A DNA stretch of 46,491 nucleotides from Sphingobacteriaceae bacterium (GTDB lineage Bacteria; Bacteroidota; Bacteroidia; B-17B0; Aurantibacillaceae). Shown piece after piece: positions 509 through 23,400 of the stretch (positions within the stretch are counted from its first letter, which is position 1; each line of letters begins with the position of its first letter). A program made the position numbers and the translations under genes. Below the pieces are notes generated by a model that saw only the letters and a list, made by a program, of their open reading frames with translations, did no database searches and was not told the origin of the DNA. The stretch is from the NCBI GenBank assembly GCA_023251725.1, contig JAHEYG010000015.1, positions 1 to 46,491 of the forward strand, in the 5' to 3' direction.

Positions 509-517
509 TTTAATGTG
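509..517. repeat. Target-site duplication, left copy (TTTAATGTG)
   Basis: TTTAATGTG abuts the left inverted end of the transposon and recurs at 4293-4301 abutting the right end in the same orientation. The match can be extended by GG because the element's left end begins with G and the right flank also reads GG. IS1595 elements usually duplicate 8 bp, so the true duplication may be TTAATGTG with one chance match. Confidence 0.7.
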
Positions 518-541
518 GGGTATATCCCCTCAAGACATTTT
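518..541 (+). repeat. Left terminal inverted repeat of the transposon
   Basis: It starts GGGTATATCCCCTCA and ends CATTTT. The core TATCCCCTCA (523-532) is the exact inverse of TGAGGGGATA at 4277-4286. After a 3-bp mismatch both ends read CATTTT. The end also holds a small hairpin, CTCAA (529-533) with TTGAG (541-545), followed by six T residues; this could weakly stop host transcripts entering the element. Confidence 0.65.
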
Positions 542-560
542 TGAGTTTTTTCGGAAATTT

Positions 561-791
561 TTAAGAAATTGATTCCAATAAAGACTCTATTTTAACCCCT
601 AAAGCTTTCGAGATTCTATAGAGAGTTTTAATTGTAGGATTAGTTTTTCCGGCTTCAATCCGGCGTAGATTTGGCGGTTCTATATCAATTGTTTCAGCTA
701 ACTTTTTTTGTGAAATGTTTTTTTGTTTTCGGATGCGCCCGATATTATAACCTAAATTGATAATATATTTTTCCTCTTCACCTTTAGCCAT
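561..791 (-). CDS. XRE-family HTH repressor, 76 aa
   Basis: A small single-domain helix-turn-helix protein. The HTH spans about residues 14-68, with the pattern IGRIRKQKNISQKKLAETID, then LRRIEAGKTNPTIKTLYRIS, typical of Cro/C1 (HTH_3) domains. It has no extra domain and is as short as a lone DNA-binding domain can be. It reads away from the 893 lipoprotein gene, and a perfect 16-bp palindrome sits between them (826-841). I infer that it represses itself and the lipoprotein unit. It is the outermost cargo gene at the left end of the transposon; its stop is about 20 bp inside the left inverted repeat. It could instead be a controller protein or an orphan antitoxin. Confidence 0.85.
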   Translation of the reverse strand: MAKGEEEKYIINLGYNIGRIRKQKNISQKKLAETIDIEPPNLRRIEAGKTNPTIKTLYRISKALGVKIESLLESIS

Positions 792-825
792 TACTCAATA
801 ATCAAATTTTTAGCCAAAATTTAGA

Positions 826-841
826 TTATCATATATGATAA
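826..841. promoter_or_regulatory. Perfect 16-bp palindrome, probable XRE operator
   Basis: TTATCATATATGATAA is fully self-complementary and lies in the 101-bp divergent region between the XRE gene (start 791) and the lipoprotein gene (start 893). Two-fold symmetry and location suit a dimeric XRE repressor. Regulation is inferred. Confidence 0.55.
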
Positions 842-892
842 GTTTGAAAATTTATTTACTTTTATAGCTAAATAACCTAAATCCAATTTACT

Positions 893-1279
893 ATGATAAA
901 AAGTATTGTACTTGGTATATTATGTATAATCATAATTATCACCACGGGATGTGCAACGATGTTTACTGGCACAAAACAAAAAATAACCTTTAATACCATT
1001 GCCGAAGGAACCGTTTACCAAAACTTATCTATGATTGGCAAAACAAATCAAGTAATTAAAGTACGGCGAAAAGACCTTGTTAAACTTTATACCGTTAAAG
1101 CCGAAGGTTATCACGATAAACAATTTGAACTTGACATTAGAACCAATCCTGCATTTTATTTAAATCTTCCATTATGTTTTGCTTTTGGTTGCGGAATTAT
1201 ATGGGCTTATGTTGATGTGGCGTATGGTGCTCAATTAAAAACTGATAAAATTATTAATGTTGAAATGGTAAAAAAATAG
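893..1279 (+). CDS. Small surface lipoprotein, 128 aa
   Basis: The N-terminus has a hydrophobic run (IVLGILCIIIIIT) ending in TTGC, a good signal-peptidase II lipobox with the lipidated Cys at residue 20, followed by ATMFTGTKQKITFNT. The motif CATMFxGTxQxITFxTxxEG resembles small PEGA-like lipoproteins found in phages and mobile elements, in which a short beta-rich segment follows the lipid anchor. Residues 90-110 (FYLNLPLCFAFGCGIIWAYVDVAYGA) are strongly hydrophobic with a glycine-rich centre, perhaps a membrane-associating turn. It is cargo of the transposon, divergent from the XRE repressor and probably controlled by it. The biological role is unknown; envelope modification or surface exclusion are possibilities without direct support. 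Confidence 0.8.
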   Translation: MIKSIVLGILCIIIIITTGCATMFTGTKQKITFNTIAEGTVYQNLSMIGKTNQVIKVRRKDLVKLYTVKAEGYHDKQFELDIRTNPAFYLNLPLCFAFGCGIIWAYVDVAYGAQLKTDKIINVEMVKK

Positions 1280-1302
1280 AATAAAATTATAATCTTTGTT
1301 AC

Positions 1303-1479
1303 ATGGGTCGCAAACCAAAAAAACATCCTAAAGAGGGAGATAAAAAGTCAATGAAAGAATTAACTGAAGACCATGAAGAGTTTATGAAAGGTCGTAATTC
1401 AAACAGGAAAGAAGAGGATGAAAACGCAAAAGAAAAATTTGAAGAACTATTAAAAAAAACGGTTAAGAAACGCCGTTAA
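1303..1479 (+). CDS. Small charged protein, 58 aa
   Basis: ATG at 1303 to TAA at 1477-1479 encodes a highly charged peptide beginning MGRKPKKHPKEG and ending ELLKKTVKKRR. It is basic at both ends, acidic in the middle (EDHEEFMKG, KEEDENAKEKFEE), and probably helical. It begins 23 bp after the lipoprotein stop, so the two could be co-transcribed, and a near-consensus promoter word (TAATCTTTG) lies just upstream. The last 17 bases overlap the 3' end of the convergent transposase gene (1463-1479). No family recognised. Codon use looks natural, which favours a real gene, but the small size leaves doubt. Confidence 0.5.
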   Translation: MGRKPKKHPKEGDKKSMKELTEDHEEFMKGRNSNRKEEDENAKEKFEELLKKTVKKRR

Positions 1480-2317
1480 GCATTATTTCAAACATTTTTT
1501 CCGGCACATTTCTATTATTATATCTAAAAACACATTCATCAATATATAATTGAATATGTTTTTTAGAAACCCAAATATGCGTTCCGCTAATCATTCTTTT
1601 AAGTTGGCTAAAGAACGACTCAACAGTATTCGTTGAAATTTCACCATCGACATATCTTTTTAATTGGTGCATAATTGTTTTATGAATATAGCCTAAGTCT
1701 CTTAGATTAACATATGACTTAAATTCGTCAGTCATTATTGTCGCAGCTTTATCAATATTTTCTTGTATTATTGGAAGCAAAGTTGTTTTTTGAGAGTTAT
1801 CTACTTTTTGAGCGATAACATTTCCTAATCGTTCTACCATAGCAAATACCGGCTGACGATCGGGTACTGTTCGCCCTAAATTTTTTCCGGGCGATCCGCC
1901 GACATAGCACTCATCCGCCTCCACTATACCGAATAATTGAGTTTTTTTATTTCTCCCCATTAATTCACGAATCATTTTTGCCATTCGCCAACTAGTTTTG
2001 TAAGTCACGCCCAAAACTCGCTCCAATTCTTTTGCAGAAACTCCGTTGCGAGTTACCGTCATTAAATACATTGCATAGAACCAATACGTAAGTGGTGTGG
2101 TAGTTTTTTCAAATACTGTTCCCGCGGTTGGATATAATTGATAATAACAGTCACGGCACTGATAACTTCGCCTATTACTTACCCTTTTAAAAGTAGGATT
2201 AACCACCGCACATTTAGGACAACATTCGAGTTTCCCATAGCGTAATTGAAATAATTTATCTAAACAGGTCGCATCATTCGGATAATCTTTTCTAAATTGC
2301 ATTATTGTGTATTTCAT
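1463..2317 (-). CDS. IS1595-family (ISXO2-like) transposase, 284 aa
   Basis: An N-terminal zinc ribbon (Cys33-x2-Cys36 and Cys54-x2-Cys57, around YQCRDC) is followed by a helical DNA-binding region with VSAKELERVLGVTYKTSWRM (about 93-112). The catalytic core follows: Asp135 in VEADECYVGG, Asp197 in IMTDEFKSY, Asn230 and Lys240 in TNTVESFFSQLKRMISGTH. This matches the DDNK active site of the ISXO2/IS1595 group, and HIQLYIDECVFRYNNR near the C-terminus is typical of it. Length is normal and no frame damage is seen, so it should be active. It lies in the middle of the element between two cargo groups rather than filling it. A divergent promoter region shared with the 2476 operon contains operator-like repeats. 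Confidence 0.92.
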   Translation of the reverse strand: MKYTIMQFRKDYPNDATCLDKLFQLRYGKLECCPKCAVVNPTFKRVSNRRSYQCRDCYYQLYPTAGTVFEKTTTPLTYWFYAMYLMTVTRNGVSAKELERVLGVTYKTSWRMAKMIRELMGRNKKTQLFGIVEADECYVGGSPGKNLGRTVPDRQPVFAMVERLGNVIAQKVDNSQKTTLLPIIQENIDKAATIMTDEFKSYVNLRDLGYIHKTIMHQLKRYVDGEISTNTVESFFSQLKRMISGTHIWVSKKHIQLYIDECVFRYNNRNVPEKMFEIMLNGVS

Positions 2318-2337
2318 AGCGTTCTAATTTTACAACA

Positions 2338-2345
2338 CAAATATA
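2338..2345 (-). promoter_or_regulatory. Candidate -7 box (TATATTTG) for the transposase
   Basis: The minus strand reads TATATTTG 20 bp before the transposase ATG. No TTTG -33 element sits at the right distance, so the promoter may be weak or controlled. The neighbouring repeats at 2364-2422 could affect both directions. Confidence 0.4.
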
Positions 2346-2363
2346 GGGCTTTTTATAATAAAA

Positions 2364-2422
2364 CACATATTTTAACAAAATATATGCACATATTTTAACA
2401 AAATAATATACACATAAATTTG
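2364..2422 (+). repeat. Tandem operator-like repeats, 23-24 bp period
   Basis: CACATATTTTAACAAAATA occurs exactly at 2364-2382 and 2387-2405. A degenerate third copy starts with CACATA at 2411. Each full copy contains a dyad, best seen as ATATTTTAACAAAATAT (2368-2384), with 7-bp arms around AAC. The third copy overlaps the -33 TTTG of the 2476 promoter. This is the layout of a multi-site autoregulatory operator, most simply for the XRE-ImmA protein of the same operon. Confidence 0.55.
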
Positions 2423-2450
2423 TTTTTTTTATGCGTGTGCCGTATATTTG
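2419..2450 (+). promoter_or_regulatory. Promoter of the 2476-4183 operon
   Basis: TTTG at 2419-2422 and TATATTTG at 2443-2450 are separated by 20 bp, an almost ideal Bacteroidota primary sigma promoter. The expected start is near 2454, giving a leader of about 20 nt before ATG 2476. Confidence 0.6.
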
Positions 2451-2475
2451 TACTCAGAAACCAAAATAAAAGCCT

Positions 2476-3105
2476 ATGAATAAGAATTATACGTTGTTTA
2501 ATCTCGATGAGTTAGAAAAAAGAAAAACATCCAATCAACAAGAATTTGAAGATAAAAATTTTCATTTATTAACCGCATTGCCCGACATGGTAAAACGCAG
2601 TTTTGAACGTCTTAATAAAGAAATTTTAGCGATTACTGAAATAGTAAGTCGTGAAAAAAACTTATCAGCAGATGCAATCAGCGGATATTTAAAGGGTGAA
2701 TTAATAAAGGCGTTTCCAGAATATTGCGGCGAGGCTACCCCTTCTCGCTTTAAGTTAAAAAGTCCGAATAATGGCGAATGGATTTATGTAAAAAAACTCT
2801 TTAAATGTAAAGGCGGTTACACACCTAAAAACGGATATTCAAAAAATAACGAAAAAATATATAATCAGCGTTCTGATGAACCGGCGGATATATCTCCAAA
2901 TATTTTTATTGGTTATGTAGCGAATGATGAAATGACAGATGCTATTGGAGTTTTTGCTATCTGTAAGGATGGCGATGAAATAAAATGGGTTTCTGATCTA
3001 AGTAGTTTAGCCGCGAAACAGAAAACCACAATGGTTATGGAGGTTGTGAAAAAAGAAACAAAACTGAAAGATGGATTATTAAAATTAAAAAAGAAAGTCA
3101 ATTAA
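2476..3105 (+). CDS. Unknown 209-aa protein, partner of XRE-ImmA fusion
   Basis: I do not recognise a family. Residues 1-80 look helical and charged (LDELEKRKTSNQQEFEDK, then MVKRSFERLNKEILAITEIV). Residues 95-170 look beta-rich and conserved in style (RFKLKSPNNGEWIYVKKLFK, ISPNIFIGYVANDEMTDAIGV, CKDGDEIKWVSD). The tail is lysine-rich (LKDGLLKLKKKVN). There is no signal peptide or membrane segment, so it is cytosolic. Its stop is 4 bp before the start of the XRE-ImmA gene and the promoter at 2419-2450 serves both. By analogy with pairs in which an XRE-ImmA/IrrE protein neutralises or regulates its neighbour, it could be a toxin, an antirepressor target or a mobile-element control protein; this is inference only. 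Confidence 0.75.
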   Translation: MNKNYTLFNLDELEKRKTSNQQEFEDKNFHLLTALPDMVKRSFERLNKEILAITEIVSREKNLSADAISGYLKGELIKAFPEYCGEATPSRFKLKSPNNGEWIYVKKLFKCKGGYTPKNGYSKNNEKIYNQRSDEPADISPNIFIGYVANDEMTDAIGVFAICKDGDEIKWVSDLSSLAAKQKTTMVMEVVKKETKLKDGLLKLKKKVN

Positions 3106-3109
3106 TTAA

Positions 3110-4183
3110 ATGAAAGTTTTTAATCCTCATATGCTATCAATCGCGCGTAACTCTCGCGGTCTTACGCAAAAGGCGTTAATAAACCTTTTGCCAAAAGTAA
3201 ATCAATCGACGATTTCAAGACTTGAAAGAGGAGAGCTTCGTGTTAGTGATGATATATTAAAAGCTATAGCTGATGCATTACAGTATCCGGTTGATTTTTT
3301 TTATCAGGTGGATACAAAAACGCCAGTTTCAAATATATATTTTAGAAAACGAGCGGCATTGAACGGCACCGATTTTAATAAAATAATGGCGGAAATAAGT
3401 ATTATTTTGAAAAGTATAGACACGTTACTTGAAGATGTTGAAATTAAAGAATATCCAAAATATATATTTGACATAACCGAGGGTTGGACGCCTGAAAGTG
3501 CTGCCTCTCGCATGAGAGAGATACTGCAAATTCCTAATGGAAAACCTGTAAAAGATATAATTAAACGTATTGAGGAATTAGGAATAATTGTTTTCTTTTA
3601 CGATAGCCCAAATTCGGAATTCGACGGACTTACGTCATATACCGATAATGGTGTGCCAGTAATTTTCGTTAATAAAAACAAACCAAATGATCGTATAAAA
3701 TTTACCGTTGTACATGAACTTTTTCATTTGGTCTTACATATTCCCTGTAACATACAGCCATGGCGAGATTATGAAGCAGAAGCTAATTTAGCCACTGGTG
3801 AGTTTTTTATGCCCGCAAATGATTGCGTGGGTGATTTGCGCGGACTTTCTTATAATAAATTAGCAAATTTAAAATCTTACTGGGGAATTTCAAAAGCATC
3901 AATTATTCATCGTGCAAAAGACTTAAATTTAATTACTGCGGAGACATTCAAATATTTAATGATTGAACTGGGAAGAAAAGGAGAAAGAAAAAATGAATTA
4001 GGATACGTAGACTTAGATCCTCCGCAAATTACATCAACAATTATAAATTTATTAAAAAATGAATTAAATTACACTAAAATCGATTTATCAAATAAAATGT
4101 ATTTATCAGCGAACGATTATATGGGATTTTTTGAACCACAAATTAATGGAGTTAAATTAAAAGTTATAAGTAAATCGGCATAA
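3110..4183 (+). CDS. XRE HTH fused to ImmA/IrrE metallopeptidase, 357 aa
   Basis: An N-terminal XRE domain (about residues 5-62: LSIARNSRGLTQKALINLLP, STISRLERGELRVSDDILKA) is joined to an ImmA/IrrE (COG2856) zinc peptidase. The motif HELFH at 202-206 and EAEAN at 222-226, followed by ATGEFFMP, supply the two His and one Glu zinc ligands and the usual downstream signature. The last 70 residues form an extra tail (LGYVDLDPPQITSTIINLLK onwards). Known relatives are ImmA of ICEBs1, which cleaves its repressor, and IrrE/PprI, which cleaves DdrO; fused forms also act as antitoxin-like regulators. It is the second gene of a two-gene operon, probably autoregulated through the repeats at 2364-2422. 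The protease's target is unknown; the 209-residue partner or the second XRE protein of the element are candidates. Confidence 0.9.
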   Translation: MKVFNPHMLSIARNSRGLTQKALINLLPKVNQSTISRLERGELRVSDDILKAIADALQYPVDFFYQVDTKTPVSNIYFRKRAALNGTDFNKIMAEISIILKSIDTLLEDVEIKEYPKYIFDITEGWTPESAASRMREILQIPNGKPVKDIIKRIEELGIIVFFYDSPNSEFDGLTSYTDNGVPVIFVNKNKPNDRIKFTVVHELFHLVLHIPCNIQPWRDYEAEANLATGEFFMPANDCVGDLRGLSYNKLANLKSYWGISKASIIHRAKDLNLITAETFKYLMIELGRKGERKNELGYVDLDPPQITSTIINLLKNELNYTKIDLSNKMYLSANDYMGFFEPQINGVKLKVISKSA

Positions 4184-4234
4184 TTTAGATGATGATAACA
4201 TATAGAAAAAATTAAATATTATTTATTTTTAAAG

Positions 4235-4258
4235 AGTTCTATTAAAAGAACTTTTTTT
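4235..4258 (+). terminator. Rho-independent terminator after XRE-ImmA gene
   Basis: AGTTCT (4235-4240) and AGAACT (4247-4252) form a 6-bp stem with a 6-nt loop, followed by a run of T. It lies inside the right end of the transposon and would shield the host TerC gene from cargo transcription. Confidence 0.6.
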
Positions 4259-4266
4259 ATTTTTTT

Positions 4267-4292
4267 GAAAATGCTCTGAGGGGATAAGTGCC
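4267..4292 (-). repeat. Right terminal inverted repeat of the transposon
   Basis: Read inward on the minus strand it begins GGCACTTATCCCCTCA and continues to CATTTTC. It matches the left end at the TATCCCCTCA core and the following CATTTT, with GG at the tip. About 18 of 24 positions agree with a 1-bp gap near the tip. Confidence 0.65.
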
Positions 4293-4301
4293 TTTAATGT
4301 G
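4293..4301. repeat. Target-site duplication, right copy (TTTAATGTG)
   Basis: Identical in sequence and direction to 509-517. It places the insertion 31 bp upstream of the TerC start codon and 18 bp upstream of its -7 box. Confidence 0.7.
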
Positions 4302-4318
4302 GGTCCTTAAAAAAAGCG

Positions 4319-4326
4319 TAAATTTG
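4319..4326 (+). promoter_or_regulatory. -7 box (TAAATTTG) directly before terC-like gene
   Basis: TAAATTTG ends 6 nt before ATG 4333, so the transcript would be leaderless or nearly so. The position expected for the -33 element falls in the duplicated target site, which offers TTTA rather than TTTG. The box supports ATG 4333 over an upstream GTG at 4288 that lies inside the transposon end. Confidence 0.5.
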
Positions 4327-4332
4327 TATTCA

Positions 4333-5124
4333 ATGAACACTTTTCAGCAGAATTTAGAGGGTCTTTTAAGTATAAACGGAATAATTAGTCTCTTAACCTT
4401 ATCGGTATTAGAAATTGTACTGGGCATCGATAACATCATTTTTATTGCCATCACTGCCGATAAATTACCGCGCAATTTCCAGGGCAAGGCCCGAACAATT
4501 GGTTTGATTTTAGCTTTGGTTGTAAGATGTATTATGCTTTTTTCGATTGCGTGGATTGCCGGCATGAAAGATCCTTTGTTTCATATTGGTATTTACGGCG
4601 CATCGGGCAGGGGAATAATTTTATTTATTGGAGGTATATTTTTATTATACAAAACCTGGAAAGAAATTCAGGAAAAAATTAGCGGCGATGAAAGTGAATT
4701 CAGCAGTAAAGGAAAAAATACGTTTAACTCGGTAGTTTTTCAAATTGTAATTATTGATATTATTTTTTCGTTCGATTCAATTTTAACAGCGGTGGGATTA
4801 TCGGGTAATATTTTAATTATGGTTTCGGCCGTAATAATTTCGATGATATTAATGATGTTGTTTTCGGGTGTGGTTTCTGATTTCATCAATAAAAATCCCG
4901 GCATAAAAATGGTAGCGCTAGCATTTTTATTAGTGATAGGAGGTTTGTTGGTGGGAGAGGCAATGGTGGATAGTTATAACTCGACCGTTATAAACGAGGC
5001 TGACCGTGTTGAAATAAATAAAAATTACGCGTATTTAGCTTTAGGATTTGCTTTATTAATAGAACTCTTTAACATGAAAGAGAAAAAATTACGCCGCAAA
5101 AAAGATTTTAATCCTGATAAATAA
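4333..5124 (+). CDS. TerC-family integral membrane protein, 263 aa
   Basis: A TerC/Alx-type inner-membrane protein with about seven hydrophobic segments. The family hallmark VLEIVLGIDNIIFIAITADK lies near the N-terminus, and a second acidic intramembrane motif, FQIVIIDIIFSFDSILTAVG, follows near residue 140. These paired Asp-containing helices are characteristic of the family, whose members handle metal ions (manganese efflux in several characterised cases; tellurite resistance gave the name). ATG 4333 is chosen because the longer reading from 4288 starts inside the transposon and because a TAAATTTG promoter box lies at 4319-4326. The transposon insertion upstream may have changed its expression. 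Substrate here is inferred, not shown. Confidence 0.9.
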   Translation: MNTFQQNLEGLLSINGIISLLTLSVLEIVLGIDNIIFIAITADKLPRNFQGKARTIGLILALVVRCIMLFSIAWIAGMKDPLFHIGIYGASGRGIILFIGGIFLLYKTWKEIQEKISGDESEFSSKGKNTFNSVVFQIVIIDIIFSFDSILTAVGLSGNILIMVSAVIISMILMMLFSGVVSDFINKNPGIKMVALAFLLVIGGLLVGEAMVDSYNSTVINEADRVEINKNYAYLALGFALLIELFNMKEKKLRRKKDFNPDK

Positions 5125-13303: not shown

Positions 13304-16300
13304 ATGAAAAAGTTTTTCAAATATAATTTTCCAATAATTGTTCTTCTTATTTTTTTTGCAAACAAATCATTTTCTCAGGGTGCCCCTTTCTGCCCATCCA
13401 TAGTTGCATCTGGTCCTCCGTCGCCCGTTTGCCTTGCCGGATGCAGCACGCTTACTGCGAATGTGGTTCCTGTAAATTCAACCACTAATTATTCAATTCA
13501 AGCCATACCGTATGTTCCTTACGCCTATACAGGCGGAACTCCTGTTTCTGTAGGAACAGATGATATTTGGAGCACAGTTATTAATCTTCCTTATAAATTT
13601 TGTTATTTCGGAAACACCTATACGCAATGTATTATCGGTTCTAATGGACAGATTTGTTTTAATTTAGGAACAGCAGGTGGATACGATGGTTGGCCTGTTA
13701 CTACTGCACTTCCAAGTTTAGTAGATATGCCGGGTAATACAATCTGCGCCGCTTTTCGAGATATCGATCCTTCTTTCGGAGGCACTGTCGGATATTACTT
13801 TACCGGTACTGCTCCCTGCCGGGCATTAGTTATTTATTGGGCAAACATTCCTTTATATTCTTGCGGCCCTCCTAATTCAACGTTTGAAGCGGTGTTATAT
13901 GAAAACACAAATTACATCGATATTTATTTACAGAGTAGTTCAAATAGCTGCGTATCCTGGCAGCAAGGAAAAGGAATTATTGGTATTCAAAATGCTCCTG
14001 CTACTGTTGCCTATTGTCCGCCTGCACGTAATTTTCCTTCTAACTGGACTGCCACCAACGAAGCCTGGCGTTTTGTTCCAACCGGAATCCCATCTTACAC
14101 GGTGGATTGGACCGGCCCTGGCGGATACATTGGTTCTGGTTTAACACAAACAGTTTGTCCGGCTTCAACAACAGGTTACACCGCCACAATGAACGTAACA
14201 AGTTGTTCAGGTGTAACAAGTACATATACTTCTCCGGTGACCGTTAGTGTGAGTCCTAATCCTCCTCCGGTAATTACTTCAACTGTTTCGCAGTTTTCTT
14301 GTGCAAGTCCTACTGCTAATGCAGGAAGTATTAATATTACTTCCGGTACACCGGGATACACAGTTAATTGGTCGCCTGTTGCGGCATTTAGCGGTTCTAC
14401 TGCTAATACTTGGTCGGTTACCGGATTAACAATCGGAATTAATACTGTTATGGTAATTGATGCGCAAGGTTGTTCTAATACCGCAACAGTAAATGTAACA
14501 GGAGCACCTCCGGTCTCGAGTTTTAGTTTAAGTGCTCCTTCGGGGACCGTTATAGGATGTAATCCGCCAACTTTGCCTCTTGTAGCAACAAATACTTCCA
14601 CACTTGGGAACATGACTTTTACATGGACAAGTGCAACCACCGGAACTGCAACAGGCACAAACATTAATGCCACTGCACTCGGCGGAACCAATACCTATAC
14701 AGTTTATGGAAATGATTTAACGGCGGGTGCTTGTCAGGCAATACAAGTAATAACTGTTACTCAAAATACAACTGTTCCATCGGTTACTGTAAATCCTATT
14801 AGTGGCAATATAACTTGTAACGGTGCGCCGGCTTGCTTTACCGCTGTTTGTAGTCCAACGGTTAACGTACAAGGACAATGGCTGGACCCGAGTTTGTCGC
14901 CTATTGGAGGCCTATCTAATTCGCCGGTATTATTGTGTGCAAATCAACCTGGTGTTTATACAGCTTCTTTTACAAATATTACAAATGGATGTTCCCGTAC
15001 ACAAACTGTTTCTGTAACTTCATCTTCTGTAATTCCAACTATGACGATTAATGCATTGAATGGTTACGTCATAACGTGTAATCAGCCTTGTTTAACAATG
15101 AACATAAGTACCAGTTCAACATTGGCACCCAAATCCTATTCATGGACGAATCTTTCCACAACGGTCACCACCACTCCTCCAACAGGCGGTTACACTATTT
15201 GTACTCCTGGAAATTATTTAGCGGAGTTTATGGATGGAAATTTCTGCCGTATTTCTCAAATGATAACGATCTCAATAGATACCCTTCGTCCTTCGCCTTC
15301 GGCCATTAGTGGATTACCGAGTAACAGTTATACTCTAAATTGTTATAATGCTTGTATTACACCAACTGCCATTTCTAATCCATTATTATCACCCGGAAGT
15401 TATAGCTGGACTACACCACCAAACTTAACAGTTAATTCCAATACAGTATCCATTTGTTTGGCTAATATTAGTTCGAGTATAACTGCCACAAATTACACGG
15501 TACTTGCAATTGGATCTAACGGTTGTATTGGAAAGGCGAAGATTCAATTCTTTAAAAATATTTATGTGCCACCTTATACAGCAGTGTTTACACCGAGTGC
15601 AATAACTTGTGCCAATCCGTGCGTGGCAATGTCGCCACAAACAACCACATCAGTAGCTGCAACATTTACATTTGTGTCACCGGCACCTACAACAACAGCC
15701 AACACAGCGGGAGCATTGTTCTGTGTTCCGGGTGCCTACACTATGAATTATAATAATGTCAGTAATGGTTGTCAGGGCACTTATACAAATATTAATGTCC
15801 AGGTAAATGCAACCCCTCCTGCAACGGTTGTTTTACCTCCCATAATGTTGCCATGCGGTTCTAATACAGCGGTGATCAATTCCGGATTAGTGTCGAGTGT
15901 ATCATGTACTTTTATTTGGAAAGGACCACTCGGATCAGGATTAAGTAATCCGAACGGATACACCACAAGTGTAAATATGACAGGGAATTATAATGTAATT
16001 ATCACCAATACAATAAATGGTTGTACAGCATTGAATTCGGTGGCTGTTGTACCCGGAACAATTACTGCAAATTTTACACCCAATCCATCGCAAGGATTTT
16101 CTCCGTTGAGTGTTAATTTTAATAATACAAGTGTTTTGGGTTCCAGTTCTACAGGCACTGTTTATACCTGGTGGGGTTATGGCAATGGAAGCACAAACAC
16201 TTATACAAACATTTCGGCGGGTGGGTCACCTAACGGTTTCGCTATGTACCCTACCGCAGGAACATACTCTGTTTTGTTAGTAGTAACGCAATCGGTAACC

Positions 16301-16645
16301 GTGGCAGGAAATACCACAGGTTGTACTTCAACGGCTACCGCTCTTATTGTGGTGGATTTGCCTTCTAAATTAATTGTTCCAAATATTTTTACGCCTAATG
16401 GTGATGGAATTAATGATGTGTTTTTTGTTCAAAGCACCAATCTGGCCGAAATTACCTGTGTGATTTTTGATCGCTGGGGAGTTAAAATGTACGATGTAAG
16501 TTCAACTACAGGAAATATTTCTTGGGATGGCAAAACTTTATTTGGAAAAGATACTCCTTCGGGAACTTATTTCTACATTTTAAAAGCTACCGGAAAAGAT
16601 GGAAATACATTTGAAGAAAAAGGAAGCTTGAGTTTGTATAGATAA
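13304..16645 (+). CDS. Giant T9SS type B surface protein 1 (NIDO-like head), 1113 aa
   Basis: A signal peptide (to about FSQG, residue 25) precedes a head (about 55-260) with nidogen-like features: DDIWSTVINLPYKFCYFGNT, IGSNGQICFNLG, FRDIDPSFGGTVGYY, FEAVLYENTNYIDIYLQ. Two Ig-like modules follow, then the shared stalk (residues 487-1113): five Cys-containing Ig-like modules, a PKD domain (NFTPNPSQGFSPLSVNFNNT), and the type B sorting domain VPNIFTPNGDGINDVF with FDRWGVKMYDV. Type B domains direct export by T9SS. The stalk is nearly repeated in the genes at 17188 and 20402. Likely a surface-anchored or released adhesin or structural protein. Confidence 0.88.
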   Translation: MKKFFKYNFPIIVLLIFFANKSFSQGAPFCPSIVASGPPSPVCLAGCSTLTANVVPVNSTTNYSIQAIPYVPYAYTGGTPVSVGTDDIWSTVINLPYKFCYFGNTYTQCIIGSNGQICFNLGTAGGYDGWPVTTALPSLVDMPGNTICAAFRDIDPSFGGTVGYYFTGTAPCRALVIYWANIPLYSCGPPNSTFEAVLYENTNYIDIYLQSSSNSCVSWQQGKGIIGIQNAPATVAYCPPARNFPSNWTATNEAWRFVPTGIPSYTVDWTGPGGYIGSGLTQTVCPASTTGYTATMNVTSCSGVTSTYTSPVTVSVSPNPPPVITSTVSQFSCASPTANAGSINITSGTPGYTVNWSPVAAFSGSTANTWSVTGLTIGINTVMVIDAQGCSNTATVNVTGAPPVSSFSLSAPSGTVIGCNPPTLPLVATNTSTLGNMTFTWTSATTGTATGTNINATALGGTNTYTVYGNDLTAGACQAIQVITVTQNTTVPSVTVNPISGNITCNGAPACFTAVCSPTVNVQGQWLDPSLSPIGGLSNSPVLLCANQPGVYTASFTNITNGCSRTQTVSVTSSSVIPTMTINALNGYVITCNQPCLTMNISTSSTLAPKSYSWTNLSTTVTTTPPTGGYTICTPGNYLAEFMDGNFCRISQMITISIDTLRPSPSAISGLPSNSYTLNCYNACITPTAISNPLLSPGSYSWTTPPNLTVNSNTVSICLANISSSITATNYTVLAIGSNGCIGKAKIQFFKNIYVPPYTAVFTPSAITCANPCVAMSPQTTTSVAATFTFVSPAPTTTANTAGALFCVPGAYTMNYNNVSNGCQGTYTNINVQVNATPPATVVLPPIMLPCGSNTAVINSGLVSSVSCTFIWKGPLGSGLSNPNGYTTSVNMTGNYNVIITNTINGCTALNSVAVVPGTITANFTPNPSQGFSPLSVNFNNTSVLGSSSTGTVYTWWGYGNGSTNTYTNISAGGSPNGFAMYPTAGTYSVLLVVTQSVTVAGNTTGCTSTATALIVVDLPSKLIVPNIFTPNGDGINDVFFVQSTNLAEITCVIFDRWGVKMYDVSSTTGNISWDGKTLFGKDTPSGTYFYILKATGKDGNTFEEKGSLSLYR
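14762..16642 (+). repeat. Common stalk, copy 1 of 3
   Basis: Codes residues 487-1113 of protein 1. From NTTVPSVTVNPISGN to the C-terminus it aligns almost without gaps with copies 2 and 3. DNA differs mostly at silent sites, with islands of near identity to copy 2 (around 15238-15302 against 18959-19023). Confidence 0.8.
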
Positions 16646-16694
16646 TATTGTTTTATAATTTATAAGTTTGATTTAAATATTAATTTTTTTAACC

Positions 16695-17186
16695 ATGATT
16701 TCAATCAGAAAAATTGTACACTTATGTTTGTTGCTTTTAATTGCACCATTCATTAAATCTCAAACCGAAGGCTTAGAAGTAAGAAATAAAATTCAATTCG
16801 CAATTCCAGATTTAAATCTCGAGAATAAAATACTTTTTATCAATGTTTGGCAATCAGGCGATTTTTTGTCACGGCAAAACAACAAGGAGTTTTTGCGGGT
16901 GAGCGAAATTTATAAGGGCGCTAAATTAAAAAATGGTTTAAAAGGAGTTTGTTATATAAATATTTCTTTAGATAACGATAACACCATTTGGGAAATTAGT
17001 TTAAAGAAAGATTCGGTAATGAGCCACAACAGTTTTAATACCGATTCGAAACGTTTTGATGAGGTGCTTAAGTATTTTGGGAATAAAACCGGGAGCAGAA
17101 TCGTAAACAGTAATGGTGAAATAGTTTCCAAAGATGTAAAGAAAGAAAATTGCTTTAATTTATTCAGATCACTTATAACTCGATAA
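16695..17186 (+). CDS. Secreted thioredoxin-fold-like protein without Cys pair, 163 aa
   Basis: A signal peptide (IVHLCLLLLIAPFIKSQ) is followed by a domain whose strand-helix order fits TlpA-like thioredoxins: ENKILFINVWQSGDF in place of the usual FWATWCxPC motif, then EIYKGAKLKNGLKGVCYINI, SLDNDNTIWEISLKKDSVM, and GSRIVNSNGEIVSKD. The redox Cys pair is absent, so no disulfide chemistry is expected; Cys residues remain only at GVCYI and ENCFN. It sits between giant proteins 1 and 2, ending 1 bp before the start of protein 2. A redox-dead chaperone for the Cys-rich stalks is an attractive but untested idea. Confidence 0.6.
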   Translation: MISIRKIVHLCLLLLIAPFIKSQTEGLEVRNKIQFAIPDLNLENKILFINVWQSGDFLSRQNNKEFLRVSEIYKGAKLKNGLKGVCYINISLDNDNTIWEISLKKDSVMSHNSFNTDSKRFDEVLKYFGNKTGSRIVNSNGEIVSKDVKKENCFNLFRSLITR

Positions 17187-17187
17187 A

Positions 17188-20100
17188 ATGAAAAAAAATA
17201 TTTTAATTCTTGGCGTTTTAATCTTTTTTAGTTTTAGAACCATCGCGCAGGTTACAGCAAAGGATTGTACAGTAGCGGTTAACGTTTGTACCAATGCTTC
17301 ATTTTCGGTTTCACCTGCGGGTGGAGGATTTGTTGATTTTACTACCGGAAACACCATTTCAAATCCAATTGGTAATCCTGTAGGCGTGGTGCCGGCCGGT
17401 GGACAAGGTTGTTTAAAAGCAGGAGAATTAAATCCAACCTGGATGATTATCAATATTCAAACAGCTGGTACATTAGAATTTTCGATGGGAGCAGGGGTTG
17501 GTGCAGGAGCGCAATCGGGTTGTTACGATTGGATTATGTGGGCTTATCTTCCCACTACATGTAGTGGAATAAATGCCAATACACAACCGCCTGTTCGTTG
17601 CTGCTGGAACTCGCTTTGTTCTGGTGGTACCGGATTAGCATCAGCCGCTAATTTACCGGCCGGAGGAAGTGCATTAGATTTTGGTGCCCCATTAAATGTA
17701 AACTGCGGCGATAAATACATTATGTGTTTTTCAAATTATAGCGGCGTAACTACTTTGGTGCCTCTCAATTTTTTTGGCACTTCTATTGTTTCATGTAGCC
17801 CGGTTTCAAATACACTTTCAATTAACAGCGCTTCCATTTGTCCGGGCAGTATTGCAACACTCTCCGTTGCGTTATCGCCCGGAACTACTTATACCTGGCA
17901 GCCCGGTGGTTCCAATAGTACAACCATTAATGTTTCTCCGGCTTCCACCACCATTTATACATTATCAGCCACCAATATTTGCGGCACCTTAACCGGAACT
18001 ACTTCTGTCTTTGTTTCTCCACCGTTAGCTTTGTCGTTAAGCGCAACAAATGGAAATTGCGCTTTAGGAACTTTAGGTTCTGCTACCGTTACTCCTTCTG
18101 GAGGAACGCCCGGCTATACTTATTCCTGGTCGCCAGTTGGCGGTGTAACCAACAATGCTTCCGGTCTTACCACCGGAACTTATTCTGTAAAAGTAACTGA
18201 TGCCTTAGGTTGTACTGCCGTTACCTCCACTAATATTCTGGCTCCGGCACCAATATCATTTTCGGTGAATTCAACTTCAGGCTCTTACACATTAGTTTGT
18301 AATCCAAACACTCAAACTTTAAACGCTGTAAATACTTCCACTTTAACCAATGTGACTTTTACTTGGACTCCGGGCGGTTTCGTTGGGAATTCTTTCATAG
18401 TAAATACACCAGGTGTTTATGTTGTTACGGGGCAAGATCAGATTGTTGGTTCTTGTATTGCAACACAAACCATTTCGGTTGTTCAAAATACAACCGCTCC
18501 AACAGTTACTGTAAATCCTATTACCGGAAATTTATCCTGTAACGGTGCGCCGGCTTGTTTTACGGCTGTTTGTACACCAACGGTCAATGTACAAGGACAA
18601 TGGTACAATCCTAGTTTATCGCCCATTGGTGGTTTAAGTAATTCACCAATTTTATTATGCGCCAATCAGCCCGGTGTATATACCTGTTCTTTGCTTAACA
18701 TTACCAATGGATGTGTTGGTACAGGAAGTGTTTCAGTAACTTCAGCATCAGTAGTTCCAACCATGACTATCAATGCCTTGAATGGCTATGTAATTACCTG
18801 CTTTCAACCGTGCCTCACTATGAATATTTCAACGAGCTCAACACTGGCTCCAAAATCTTATTCATGGACAAATATGAGTACAACGGTTACCACCACTCCT
18901 CCAACCGGTGGTTATACTATTTGTACGCCCGGAAATTATTTGGCAGAGTTTATGGATGGAAATTTCTGCCGTATTTCGCAAATGATAACGGTCTCTATAG
19001 ATACCCTTCGTCCTTCGCCTTCGGCTATAAGCGGATTACCAAGCAATAGTTATACTTTAGATTGTAATCACGCCTGTATCACTCCAACGGCGATTTCAAA
19101 TCCATTATTGTCGCCGGGAAGTTATAGCTGGACTACACCGCCTAACTTAACAGTAAATTCTAATACCGTTTCTATTTGTTTGGCAAATATAAGTTCAAGT
19201 ATAACAGCTACTAATTACACAGTAATAGCAATTGGAGCTAACGGTTGTATAGGAAAGGCAAATATTCAGTTTTTCAAAAACATTTATGTTCCCCCATACA
19301 CGGCAGTGCTTACACCAACTGCAATTACTTGCGTAAATCAATGTGTGGCCATGTCTCCGCAAACTACAACTTCGGTAGCAGTTACATTTACATTTGTTTC
19401 GCCGGCACCAACTACAACTAACAATACTGCGGGCGCACAGTTTTGCGTTCCGGGAGCATATACTATGAACTACACAAATGTTAGCAATGGTTGTCCGGGT
19501 ACTTATACCAATATTAATGTTCCGTTAAATGCAACACCGCCCGCCACTGTTGTTTTATCAGCAACAACTATACCTTGTGGTTCAAATACGGTTGTATTGA
19601 GTGCGGGCACAACAAGTAATCTGGCAACTTATCAATATAACTGGATCGGTCCGCTTGGTGCGGGATTGAGCAATCCTAATGGTTACACCACAAGTGTTAA
19701 CACTGCGGGTTATTATTTAGTTACCATCACCAATACAGTAAACGGATGCAGAAGTACCAATGAAGTAAATGTTTCGATGGGCGGATTAAATGTAAACTTT
19801 ACACCTAATCCTTCGCAGGGTTTTTCGCCGCTTGTTGTTAGTTTTAATAATACAAGTGTACTAGGCGCTGTCGGAACAGGAATTATTTATACCTGGTGGG
19901 GTTATGGTAATGGTGCTACTAATTCTTTCACAAATACATCATTAACAGGTTCACCTAACGGTTCAGCAACGTACCCCACAGCCGGAACTTACACGGTGTT
20001 GCTGGTGGTAACTCAATCGGTTACTGCTGGAGGAAATACTACAGGTTGCACGGGAACTGCTACTGCAGTAATTGTGGTGGATTTGCCTTCTAAAATGAAT

Positions 20101-20370
20101 GTTCCAAATATTTTTACCCCTAATGGCGATGGTGTTAACGATGTGTTTCAATTACTAACCACTAATCTCTCCGATATTTCTTGTGTAATTTTTGATCGAT
20201 GGGGAGTTAAAATGTACGATGTAACTTCTGCAACAGGAAATATTGGTTGGGAAGGAAAAACATTATTTGGAAAAGATGCTCCTGCCGGAACCTATTTCTT
20301 TATTATAAAAGCTACCGGAAAAGATAGTAAAACATTTGAAGAAAAAGGAACCGTGGGTTTGTATAGATAA
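17188..20370 (+). CDS. Giant T9SS type B surface protein 2, 1060 aa
   Basis: A signal peptide (to about TIAQ) precedes a head (about 24-205) with CTVAVNVCTNASFSVSPAGG, LNPTWMIINIQTAGTLEFSM, CYDWIMWAYLP, PVRCCWNSLCSGGTGL and CGDKYIMCFSNYSG. This Cys-rich, Trp-containing head is met at the N-terminus of other Bacteroidota type B secreted proteins and is unrelated to the head of protein 1. Two Ig-like modules (to about 430) lead to the shared stalk (433-1060), PKD domain, and sorting domain VPNIFTPNGDGVNDVF. Third last in a tight operon: 1 bp after the preceding gene, 31 bp before the next. Function probably adhesion or surface structure. Confidence 0.88.
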   Translation: MKKNILILGVLIFFSFRTIAQVTAKDCTVAVNVCTNASFSVSPAGGGFVDFTTGNTISNPIGNPVGVVPAGGQGCLKAGELNPTWMIINIQTAGTLEFSMGAGVGAGAQSGCYDWIMWAYLPTTCSGINANTQPPVRCCWNSLCSGGTGLASAANLPAGGSALDFGAPLNVNCGDKYIMCFSNYSGVTTLVPLNFFGTSIVSCSPVSNTLSINSASICPGSIATLSVALSPGTTYTWQPGGSNSTTINVSPASTTIYTLSATNICGTLTGTTSVFVSPPLALSLSATNGNCALGTLGSATVTPSGGTPGYTYSWSPVGGVTNNASGLTTGTYSVKVTDALGCTAVTSTNILAPAPISFSVNSTSGSYTLVCNPNTQTLNAVNTSTLTNVTFTWTPGGFVGNSFIVNTPGVYVVTGQDQIVGSCIATQTISVVQNTTAPTVTVNPITGNLSCNGAPACFTAVCTPTVNVQGQWYNPSLSPIGGLSNSPILLCANQPGVYTCSLLNITNGCVGTGSVSVTSASVVPTMTINALNGYVITCFQPCLTMNISTSSTLAPKSYSWTNMSTTVTTTPPTGGYTICTPGNYLAEFMDGNFCRISQMITVSIDTLRPSPSAISGLPSNSYTLDCNHACITPTAISNPLLSPGSYSWTTPPNLTVNSNTVSICLANISSSITATNYTVIAIGANGCIGKANIQFFKNIYVPPYTAVLTPTAITCVNQCVAMSPQTTTSVAVTFTFVSPAPTTTNNTAGAQFCVPGAYTMNYTNVSNGCPGTYTNINVPLNATPPATVVLSATTIPCGSNTVVLSAGTTSNLATYQYNWIGPLGAGLSNPNGYTTSVNTAGYYLVTITNTVNGCRSTNEVNVSMGGLNVNFTPNPSQGFSPLVVSFNNTSVLGAVGTGIIYTWWGYGNGATNSFTNTSLTGSPNGSATYPTAGTYTVLLVVTQSVTAGGNTTGCTGTATAVIVVDLPSKMNVPNIFTPNGDGVNDVFQLLTTNLSDISCVIFDRWGVKMYDVTSATGNIGWEGKTLFGKDAPAGTYFFIIKATGKDSKTFEEKGTVGLYR
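18484..20367 (+). repeat. Common stalk, copy 2 of 3
   Basis: Codes residues 433-1060 of protein 2. Same modules in the same order as copies 1 and 3, length within one residue. Confidence 0.8.
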
Positions 20371-20401
20371 AATAAATTTTGTTTAATTTAATATTTTCAT
20401 T

Positions 20402-23400
20402 ATGAAATCAAAAATTATCGTTACAGGAATTATTTTCCTATTGTCGTTAGGCCTTTCGGCAAAGAACAATCCTTTTACAAAAGGAAATGATGTTTTTGGA
20501 AGCCGCGTGTTTATTGAAAACAAAGGCCAATTCAACCACGAAGCAAAAACTTCGGAACCCATAATGTACGCCCTCGATAATGGTGATGAGAAAATATATT
20601 TTACCGCTAAGGGACTTATTTATAAATTAATAAAATATGCCGAAGTCACTGAAAAGCAAATGGAGGCCATGGAGCAAGGGAAAAAATTAAAACCTGCTGA
20701 TGTTTATTTTGTAAATATGAGTTGGGCCAATGCCAATCCTGACATTCAAATTGAAGAGAGCGATAAACAAAGACATTATTTTACTTACGGACCTTCCGAT
20801 TTAAATTCTTCCTGCTTTAAAAAAATTACTTACAAAAATGTGTATAAGGGGATTGATATTGAATATACCATTCCTGAAAATAAAATATGCGGAGTTAAGT
20901 ACTCAGTTATCTTACATCCGGGCGCTAATCCGGCCGATGTACAAATAATTTATTCGGGCGATGTGAAAAAAATAATTCAGCGGGGCAATGATGTCATTGT
21001 TAAAACACCGTTAGATGATATTATAGAGCATGCACCTTCCAGTTTTTATGAGGGTGGAGAAGAAGTAGCTTCCAATTTTGTTATGTCGGATAATAGTATT
21101 GGTTTTCAATTCCCTGCCGGTTATCAGAATAATAAAACACTCATTGTTGATCCCTGGGTAACTAATATCACCACTTTATCAACCAATAATTATGGTTACG
21201 ATGTAGATTATGATTTGAATGGAAATTTATATGTTTTCGGAGGATTTAATCCTAAAGTTTCTAAATACGACAACATCGGAACTTTGTTATGGACCTTTGG
21301 CGGGGTAGTAGTTGCACCACCTTGGAATTCTATGGGTAATTTCGGTCCGAGTTTAAAAATTGTGGGAAATTTTGTGGTGGATAAACTTACCGGAAAAACA
21401 TACGTGGGCGAAGGTTATAATAGTACAGGCACTCAGGCCATACGAATTGATGGTGCCGGTAACTATAATACTTTTATCAGTACAAAAGTATCCACTTGGC
21501 AGGAAATTTGGGATATGGGCTTTCATTGTGCAAGTGGAAAAGTGTATGGTTTAGGAGGTGGAACCAATTCAAATTTATCAGTAGGATTAATTGATACCAC
21601 AACGGGAAGTTGTGCTCCAATTACACTACACCCTACTGGTCCGGTGGCGGGACAAGATATTGCCTGCAATACCATTGATGATGCAGGTAATGTGTTTGTT
21701 TATTATGCTTCCGGTAATCCGGCATTAAATAATAATATAGCCAGAGTAAATGCAGCATTTACCGCTACAGTTTGGGGCGCATTTTGCACATACAATTCTT
21801 TAAATGAAGGCCAGAATAAAAATAATTACGCCGGTGCAGGCGGATTATTTTCGAATGGATTTAATTGTTTAGCAGTGAATAGTAATTTTATTTATTATTA
21901 CGATGGATTTAATTTAGCAGCCTTCAGTAAAACCACCGGAGTAAAAATTGGTTTTACCACCATTCCCGGAAACGTTATTAAAACGCAAGGAGGAATTGCC
22001 GTTGACGATTGTGATAATGTTTACATTGGAGGAAACGGAAATATTGATTCCTATCATTTTAACGGTACTTCTTTTACCGCATTACCAAGTATTGCACTGG
22101 GAGTGGCCAATCCGTTTAAGTACGTTTACGACATTAAACTCGATAAAAATTATAATTTGCTTTACATTACAGGAAGCGGATTTGTGGGAACGTATTCGGC
22201 TATATCGAGTTTAACCTGTACCAGCAATCAATTTGTTATTACAACTAATTGTGTGGGAAATAATAACGGTACTGCAGTTGCCAGTGTAACCACTACGTTA
22301 GCTTCGCCTTTATATACCTATTTATGGTCTAACGGTGGAGGAACAGTGTCGGTAACCAATAATACCACTTCGGCCACCAATACAGTTACGGGTTTAACCA
22401 ATGGCATTTACACCGTTACCATAAAAGTAAACGCACCGTGCGGACCAATATACAGCGGTACTGTAAATGTTAATTGTATTACCGTTTGTGCGGGAGTGGC
22501 ATTCGCACAAACCGGATGCAGCGGAGCCAATACAACATTTTCATTAAATTTTGGTACCACAACCGGATTTACTTCAACACCCACCTATACATGGACAGGC
22601 CCTGGTGCATTTAATTCAAATTTACAAAATCCTGTTTTTACCAATGGTGCGTTTGGTGTTTATACCATTACCGCAAGCGATGGAAATTGTACATATTCAA
22701 CAACTGTAAATACTGTAAACTCATTGGTTAATCCAACTATTACACCAACCGGAACAGTAACTTGTACTTCCGGTGCCACTTTAACCGCCAATTTTGTAAA
22801 CGCGCCATATACTTATAACTGGAGCGGCCCAAGTATTGTTGGTCCTAATAATTTACAAAGTGCCATTGTCAACATGGGAGGAACTTACTCTGTTTCTATA
22901 ACTAATACCCTTACCGGTTGTGTGGGAACAGCTACAGTTAATATTTCTCAAAATGCTGCGGTACCTTCGGTGACGGTTAGCCCGATTTCCGGAAACTTAT
23001 CGTGTAACGGAGCTCCGGCTTGTTTTACGGCAGTTTGTTCACCAACCGTTAACGTACAAGGACAATGGTTCGATCCGAGCATTGCCCCAATAGGAGCCTT
23101 AAGTAATTCGCCTGTTCTGTTGTGCGCCAATCAGCCCGGTGTTTATACCTGCTCGTTTGTAAATATTACCAATGGTTGTGTTGGAACCGGAACTGTGACT
23201 GTAACTTCCAATTCTGCTATTCCTACAATGACAATTAATGCTTTAAACGGTTATGTGATTACTTGTTCAAAGCCTTGTTTGGTGATGAATATTTCCACCA
23301 GTTCTACTTTAGCTCCAAAATCTTATTCGTGGACGAATATGAGTACAACGGTCACCACCACTCCTCCAACCGGAGGCTATACCATTTGTACTCCAGGAAA

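Follow-up and report, generated by a model that had tools for sequence, protein, structure and literature searches.

The IS1595 family of insertion sequences, the subject of a 2009 account by Siguier, has MTnSag1 and tISCpe8 as cargo-bearing members. According to two sources (PMC8101967, PMC5704250), the family combines a zinc ribbon and DDE transposase with an 8-bp target duplication, the N-terminal zinc ribbon being present in all IS1595 groups but IS1016; GG tips are stated for the related Merlin elements, and MTnSag1 and tISCpe8 are mobilizable elements with 25-bp inverted repeats, the latter a lincomycin resistance element by its cited title. RmrA paired with diverse toxins constitutes an established anti-phage toxin-antitoxin (TA) system, RosmerTA (PMC10440598), and complete RosmerTA systems are described in Acinetobacter baumannii prophages (same source and PMC12421847). 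In Tn3-family transposons a TA pair can stand beside the transposition genes and is proposed to stabilise the element (PMC7157771). Here we describe a 3,776-bp transposon at positions 517-4292 of a 46,491-nt stretch (the window) of contig JAHEYG010000015.1, from the Sphingobacteriaceae bacterium assembly GCA_023251725.1.

The transposon shows these traits of the IS1595 family: a DDE catalytic domain, a zinc ribbon, an 8-bp duplication and GG-tipped inverted repeats. It differs from MTnSag1 and tISCpe8 in carrying a TA-like gene pair, on the 5' side of the transposase. This pair is like RosmerTA in that an RmrA-type XRE-ImmA protein (helix-turn-helix, HTH, plus ImmA protease) is encoded directly downstream of a partner gene, and unlike it in that the partner matched no toxin model tested and the carrier is an IS1595-type transposon; judged by its sequence, the pair is best called RosmerTA-like only. 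The difference from the Tn3-family cases lies in the transposase family, in the TA type and in the absence of a resolvase among the open reading frames (ORFs) of the element. None of the literature titles searched, a scope outside which most subscription papers fall, described an IS1595-type element with TA or RosmerTA cargo. We consider it likely that the locus is a self-contained IS1595-type cargo transposon with a RosmerTA-like TA operon on the 5' side of its transposase, i.e., a known kind of mobile element, fully delimited and of unusual layout, which probably carries an anti-phage TA module. Its main features were the following:

509-516, plus strand: target-site duplication, left copy
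517-541, plus strand: left terminal inverted repeat, on the 3' side of the transposase
1463-2317, minus strand: IS1595-type transposase, 284 aa
2476-3105, plus strand: 209-aa RmrA-partner protein, putative toxin
3110-4183, plus strand: 357-aa XRE-ImmA (RmrA-like) protein, putative antitoxin/metalloprotease
4268-4292, minus strand: right terminal inverted repeat, on the 5' side of the transposase
4293-4300, plus strand: target-site duplication, right copy

Ends, insertion site and transposase

A first-pass annotation of this DNA had proposed a complete cargo-bearing IS1595-type transposon, and the family models, catalytic residues, type of ends and empty site all agree with it. The boundaries were set by alignment of both ends: GGGGTATATCCCCTCAAGACATTT on the left and GGCACTTATCCCCTCAGAGCATTT on the right (reverse strand) are imperfect inverted repeats, identical at 17 of 24 positions and with GG at both outer tips. 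The motif TATCCCCTCA was present at 523-532 and inverted at 4277-4286, and TTTAATGTG at both 509-517 and 4293-4301, as the annotation had it. The direct repeat is a real target duplication; its length of 9 bp was dropped, the alignment of the ends shortening it to the exact 8-bp TTTAATGT.

No other pair of ends up to 6 kb from the transposase combined an 8/8 duplication with 15/24 or more identical end positions. The best pairs in 20 block-shuffled copies reached 17/24 with 7/8 and 15/24 with 8/8, a control that is thin when taken alone. Stronger evidence for the called ends came from matrices built from the ends of 30 relatives (see below), the window being excluded, with which 92,936 window positions were scored. 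Position 4292 on the minus strand ranked first with the 3'-end, 5'-end and all-end matrices, and 517 on the plus strand ranked second, fourth and third, respectively. Other high scores, at 22655 and 22403, both fell within a coding region and were taken as chance. Ends closer to the transposase, at about 1300-2400, which had been named beforehand as the alternative to look for, were absent from the top six sites of every matrix. The left end (516-541) is self-complementary (GGGG-TATAT-CCCC) and, together with the T run that follows, scores terminator-like.

Empty sites in the genus fit these junctions, as the annotation had suggested checking. With the element and one copy of the duplication removed, the joined flanks aligned across the junction in all seven other genus genomes searched, in six of them as a single piece and in the seventh (L009) as two pieces, the larger of which spans the junction. 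The insertion site is just upstream of a terC-like gene (PF03741, 6.2e-47), whose mechanically called ORF, 4288-5124, has its first GTG within the end of the element. The GC content of the element is 31.7%, and that of the window to its right 36.2%. Searched with at most two mismatches, a pattern derived from both ends occurred in the assembly at those two sites only, i.e., the element is present in a single copy. The assembly (3.1 Mb, 132 contigs, 75% complete) could raise the suspicion of an assembly or binning artefact, which is extremely improbable for an element that is wholly internal to a contig, is bordered by an exact duplication and has its host flanks joined in all seven genus genomes. 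Window bases 1-119 recur without a difference at one end of a second contig in this assembly (G000:C17:1-119), where the assembly may continue.

The transposase matched the family models PF12762 (2.7e-38) and NF033547 (2e-58), and its N-terminal zinc ribbon PF12760 (5.8e-8). The catalytic residues D135, D197, E233 and K240 (DDE/K), conserved in 37-38 of 38 aligned transposases, are intact. Two 35%-identical transposases are encoded elsewhere in the same genome, and no relative at 1e-50 was found in 86 other genomes of the family. The best full-length relative was 53% identical (L076) and a partial match reached 54% (L084); the best relatives in a 395-genome sample of the phylum were 51% and 50% identical.

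Related elements and the position of the cargo

The search for related elements started from 59 genome and 10 viral loci, of which 58 remained once 11 partial matches had been left out. In these, and in four of six loci from the genus and the same genome, we looked for GG-tipped ends matching at 15/24 or better, with a duplication of 7/8 or better. From the 62, 26 were retained, 25 with an 8/8 duplication and one (L050) with 7/8; L083 was excluded as a copy of L082, and other pairs with 7/8 and 15-16/24 were counted as chance. Four of five phylum loci were then added, L127 by its end motif, one tip being GT, so that the 67 loci scanned in all gave 30 distinct closed relatives with matching ends and duplication. 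Loci with flanks cut by contig ends could not be closed, and the scan favours GG-tipped elements. All 30 have GG tips, except for that one tip of L127. The consensus of the relatives was GGTAATTATCCCTTGACAaCAaGT for the 5' end and GGcAAtTATCCCcTCAcgaCAaGT for the 3' end. L124, a 50%-identical relative (L124:6011-8917), was excluded: an exact 8-bp repeat, CCTCTTGA, lies on both sides, and the ends agree at only 11/24. A 175-aa ORF lies 5' of its transposase.

The window element is unusual in having cargo 5' of its transposase. The distance from the transposase to the 5' end is 47-113 bp in 28 of the 30 closed relatives and about 500 bp in the other two; all 30 carry 889-3,229 bp downstream of the transposase, and no copy without cargo could be closed. 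In the window element 1,975 bp, holding the gene pair, lie upstream and 946 bp downstream. Both of its ends score as 3'-type (-11.8 and -6.9), in a typing that by leave-one-out gave positive scores to 28/30 5' ends and negative scores to 25/30 3' ends. The motif TTGAC, present in 28/30 5' ends and 3/30 3' ends, is in neither window end. The long upstream segment and the two 3'-like ends suggest that the 5' side of the transposase acquired the gene pair, perhaps when the 3' half of another element was fused to it. In such a fusion two related IS1595-type transposons would have been joined, the pair and the right end being the 3' half of a second element that had lost its transposase. This would fit both the 5'-side length and the end types, as well as the presence of cargo to either side of the transposase; we regard it as a tentative and rather doubtful history. 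The matrices draw mostly on relatives from other phyla, and L123, among the closest (48-51% identity), has near-identical ends that are both 5'-type, which means that end type may vary by lineage. Moreover, a transposase remnant was not seen in the element, and fusion is an account of origin that leaves the function unchanged.

The cargo of the relatives was examined in 25 ORFs, 24 from closed elements and one from L124. In Pfam, six reached a family cut-off, two gave sub-threshold rows only and 17 gave none. When the 25 proteins were scanned with PADLOC as one set, for which 25 of 87 families are in the matches listed, the L020 protein matched PDC-S33; the other rows among these matches were PDC-S42, mad2, methyltransferase and specificity-subunit models, with one bearer each, unnamed in the tally. 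Ten of the 25 proteins, scanned individually with PADLOC, gave no match. We do not claim defence cargo as a trait of the whole transposon group. Individual cargo genes encode a RelA/SpoT-domain protein (L020:2841-4112; PDC-S33, 5.8e-124), an N-6 DNA methylase with a sub-threshold HSDR_N match (L076:7121-9493) and DUF3800 proteins (L056:5465-6325 and L082:6942-7775).

It is quite possible, although we do not prefer it, that the module is a chance passenger of an ordinary IS1595 cargo transposon, with no part in the maintenance or control of the element. The relatives are consistent with this, since all 30 carry at least 889 bp downstream of the transposase and their cargo is varied, with six of 25 ORFs reaching a Pfam cut-off; the position of the module and the control region it shares with the transposase (see below) are, however, atypical among them.

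The RosmerTA-like gene pair and its control region

Beyond the calls of genes and ends, what follows we infer from sequence comparison. The cargo had been annotated as including an unknown protein and an XRE-ImmA; both are present, and we refine them to one unit resembling RosmerTA modules. The two genes, separated by 4 nt, probably form a two-gene TA module. The XRE-ImmA protein matched 14 RmrA models of PADLOC, the best at 1.9e-48 over residues 4-336, i.e., near its full length; it contains Peptidase_M78 (9.4e-10) and HTH_3 (6.8e-9) domains and, by eye, the HEXXH motif HELFH. The 209-aa protein had no match at 0.1 in Pfam, PADLOC or PHROGs and one sub-threshold NCBIfam row (0.0084). A RosmerTA system would have an adjacent RmrT fitting a known model, and the adjoining gene here is without a PADLOC match at 0.1.

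The case for the partner gene comes from its relatives. A single-sequence search with the 209-aa protein found no relatives in plasmids, phages, viral contigs or the 86 family genomes, and two marginal matches (0.006 and 0.009) in the phylum sample. Besides the protein in the window, three RmrA relatives (35-37% identity) passed 1e-46 in that sample, each with a gene for 191-214 aa directly upstream. A profile built from these three partners alone found the 209-aa protein at 2.7e-6 among 3171 ORFs, a set in which overlapping loci are counted more than once. Next came the proteins encoded upstream of RmrA in one plasmid each of Roseicitreum (5.9e-6) and Polaromonas (1.2e-4) and in an Acinetobacter phage (0.002), so that the profile ranked RmrA upstream neighbours above every unrelated ORF of the set. 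None of 2000 shuffles reached the score of the window protein (25.0 versus a best of 8.5). A profile of the window protein and the three partners found only the four loci that built it in the 395 phylum genomes, a result that says no more than that additional loci did not turn up.

Eight RmrA neighbourhoods, from seven plasmids and one phage, were inspected. An annotated gene for 196-227 aa lies directly upstream in five, and two have no same-strand gene in that position. The Roseicitreum, Acinetobacter phage and Polaromonas upstream proteins are one family, and a Devosia homologue, found by tblastn, lies upstream of its own RmrA. In the viral contig L168 (1599-6229) a partner 66% identical to that of Acinetobacter, with its RmrA, stands between lysis-type genes and an integrase (by eye). 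Relatives of the Acinetobacter phage partner are carried by 27 viral-contig loci (L143-L169). Of the family, the three plasmid/phage members match phrog_15813 (unknown function); neither the window protein nor any of the three phylum members does. The putative toxin family was found under no function in the libraries searched; since RmrA toxins are diverse and RosmerTA occurs in A. baumannii prophages, part of it may already be counted as a RosmerTA toxin.

The transposase and the pair are divergent, and the region between them (2318-2475) contains:

2338-2345, minus strand: candidate -7 box TATATTTG of the transposase promoter
2364-2405, no strand: two exact 19-bp tandem repeats (copies 2364-2382 and 2387-2405), candidate HTH operators
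2420-2450, plus strand: candidate promoter of the pair, TTG-N20-TATATTTG

The promoters were called by pattern, with what we take to be the consensus of the phylum of the host (TTG and -7 box). No matching TTG was present upstream of the transposase -7 box at the usual spacing. The window as a whole has eight full TTG-N20-TATATTTG sites, and a site of this kind was present in 106 of 5000 shuffled intergenic regions. The repeat unit, CACATATTTTAACAAAATA, occurs in two exact copies 23 bp apart, each with TATTTT-N3-AAAATA symmetry; the longest exact repeat in 300 shuffles was 12, versus 19 bp here. The repeats could be placed for the binding of HTH dimers able to act on both divergent promoters. 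Shorter or imperfect direct repeats were found upstream of the pair in four of seven relatives.

Several results weigh against a TA-bearing, self-contained transposon. The repeat sequence itself was not found upstream of the pair in those seven relatives. With no full-length transposase relative above 53% identity, mobility rests on one insertion. The tie of the window protein to the plasmid/phage branch is weaker than that to the phylum branch: a profile of the three plasmid/phage proteins was equalled on the window protein by 3 of 2000 shuffles, a profile of all six proteins scored 11.0 versus 9.2 for the best shuffle, a leave-one-out of L140 was equalled by 2 of 2000 shuffles, and hhalign gave an E-value of 0.23. 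The Hymenobacter and Neorhizobium RmrA neighbours could not be tied to the partner family. Of 28 distinct XRE-ImmA loci in the host family (30 less two repeats), 25 have no ORF of 60 aa ending just upstream, indicating that such proteins often occur without this partner, and the remaining three have short or dissimilar upstream ORFs. Finally, no toxin model matched the 209-aa protein, and its predicted structure was unusable (predicted local distance difference test, pLDDT, 46.8). For the Acinetobacter homologue (pLDDT 61.3), Foldseek found nothing at 0.001 in PDB or BFVD; its weak matches include several restriction-endonuclease-like folds, too weak for naming an activity.

In the mechanism we propose, the transposase would recognise both ends and make an 8-bp staggered insertion. 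The 209-aa protein would be the toxin (RmrT-like), held in check by the XRE-ImmA antitoxin (RmrA-like), whose HTH would repress the operon of the pair at the tandem repeats. Phage infection or a disturbance of the antitoxin would then free the toxin and arrest the cell, and loss of the transposon would likewise be penalised by the module. As the repeats are flanked by the two divergent promoters, the antitoxin may have a damping effect on the transposase too.

Part of the same evidence bears on a regulatory role of the pair, as protease and partner or substrate in the manner of ImmA/ImmR of ICEBs1, which would switch transposase expression after stress and would not be a TA system. As an anti-repressor, ImmA acts by cleaving an HTH repressor (PMC10440598); a separate small XRE regulator is encoded at 561-791, the exact tandem repeats are situated between the diverging promoters of transposase and pair, and no toxin fold was detected by structure prediction and Foldseek. 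We nevertheless regard this role as quite improbable: the near full-length similarity of the XRE-ImmA protein is to RmrA, and the partner family adjoins RmrA in plasmid and phage regions without an annotated IS1595-type transposase. With the TA reading preferred, a bolder extension, unlikely on present evidence, is that from shared operators the antitoxin would repress the transposase as well as its own operon, such that an event freeing the toxin (e.g., phage attack) would also release transposition. If this coupling were true, the element could jump out of the chromosome of a doomed cell, and the toxin would be of a new type.

As a vehicle by which a probable anti-phage TA module could move, the element is small, defined and, it appears, intact. 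Through it the 209-aa protein and its relatives, among them phrog_15813 (seen in an Acinetobacter phage), are linked to RmrA as a likely family of toxins; it is also a concrete case in which to ask whether a transposase can be under the control of a TA antitoxin.

Other genes of the element and of the window

Three further ORFs lie on the other side of the transposase:

561-791, minus strand: 76-aa XRE/Cro-type regulator (HTH_3, 5.1e-16)
893-1279, plus strand: 128-aa putative lipoprotein (lipobox-like N-terminus by eye)
1303-1479, plus strand: 58-aa basic ORF, an uncertain gene, convergent with and overlapping the end of the transposase

The regulator and the lipoprotein would be cargo, with no role assigned. 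The lipoprotein had no Pfam family and no relatives in plasmids or phages, and matched phrog_6823 weakly (0.0011). The 58-aa ORF had no Pfam, PADLOC or PHROG family and one sub-threshold NCBIfam row (0.0068). No mobilization gene was seen by eye in the element. Elsewhere in the window, at 13304-24832, three very long secreted-type proteins are encoded in a row. Their C-termini look gliding-motility-like, which makes Bacteroidota the probable phylum of the host, and by eye they have near-identical internal stretches.

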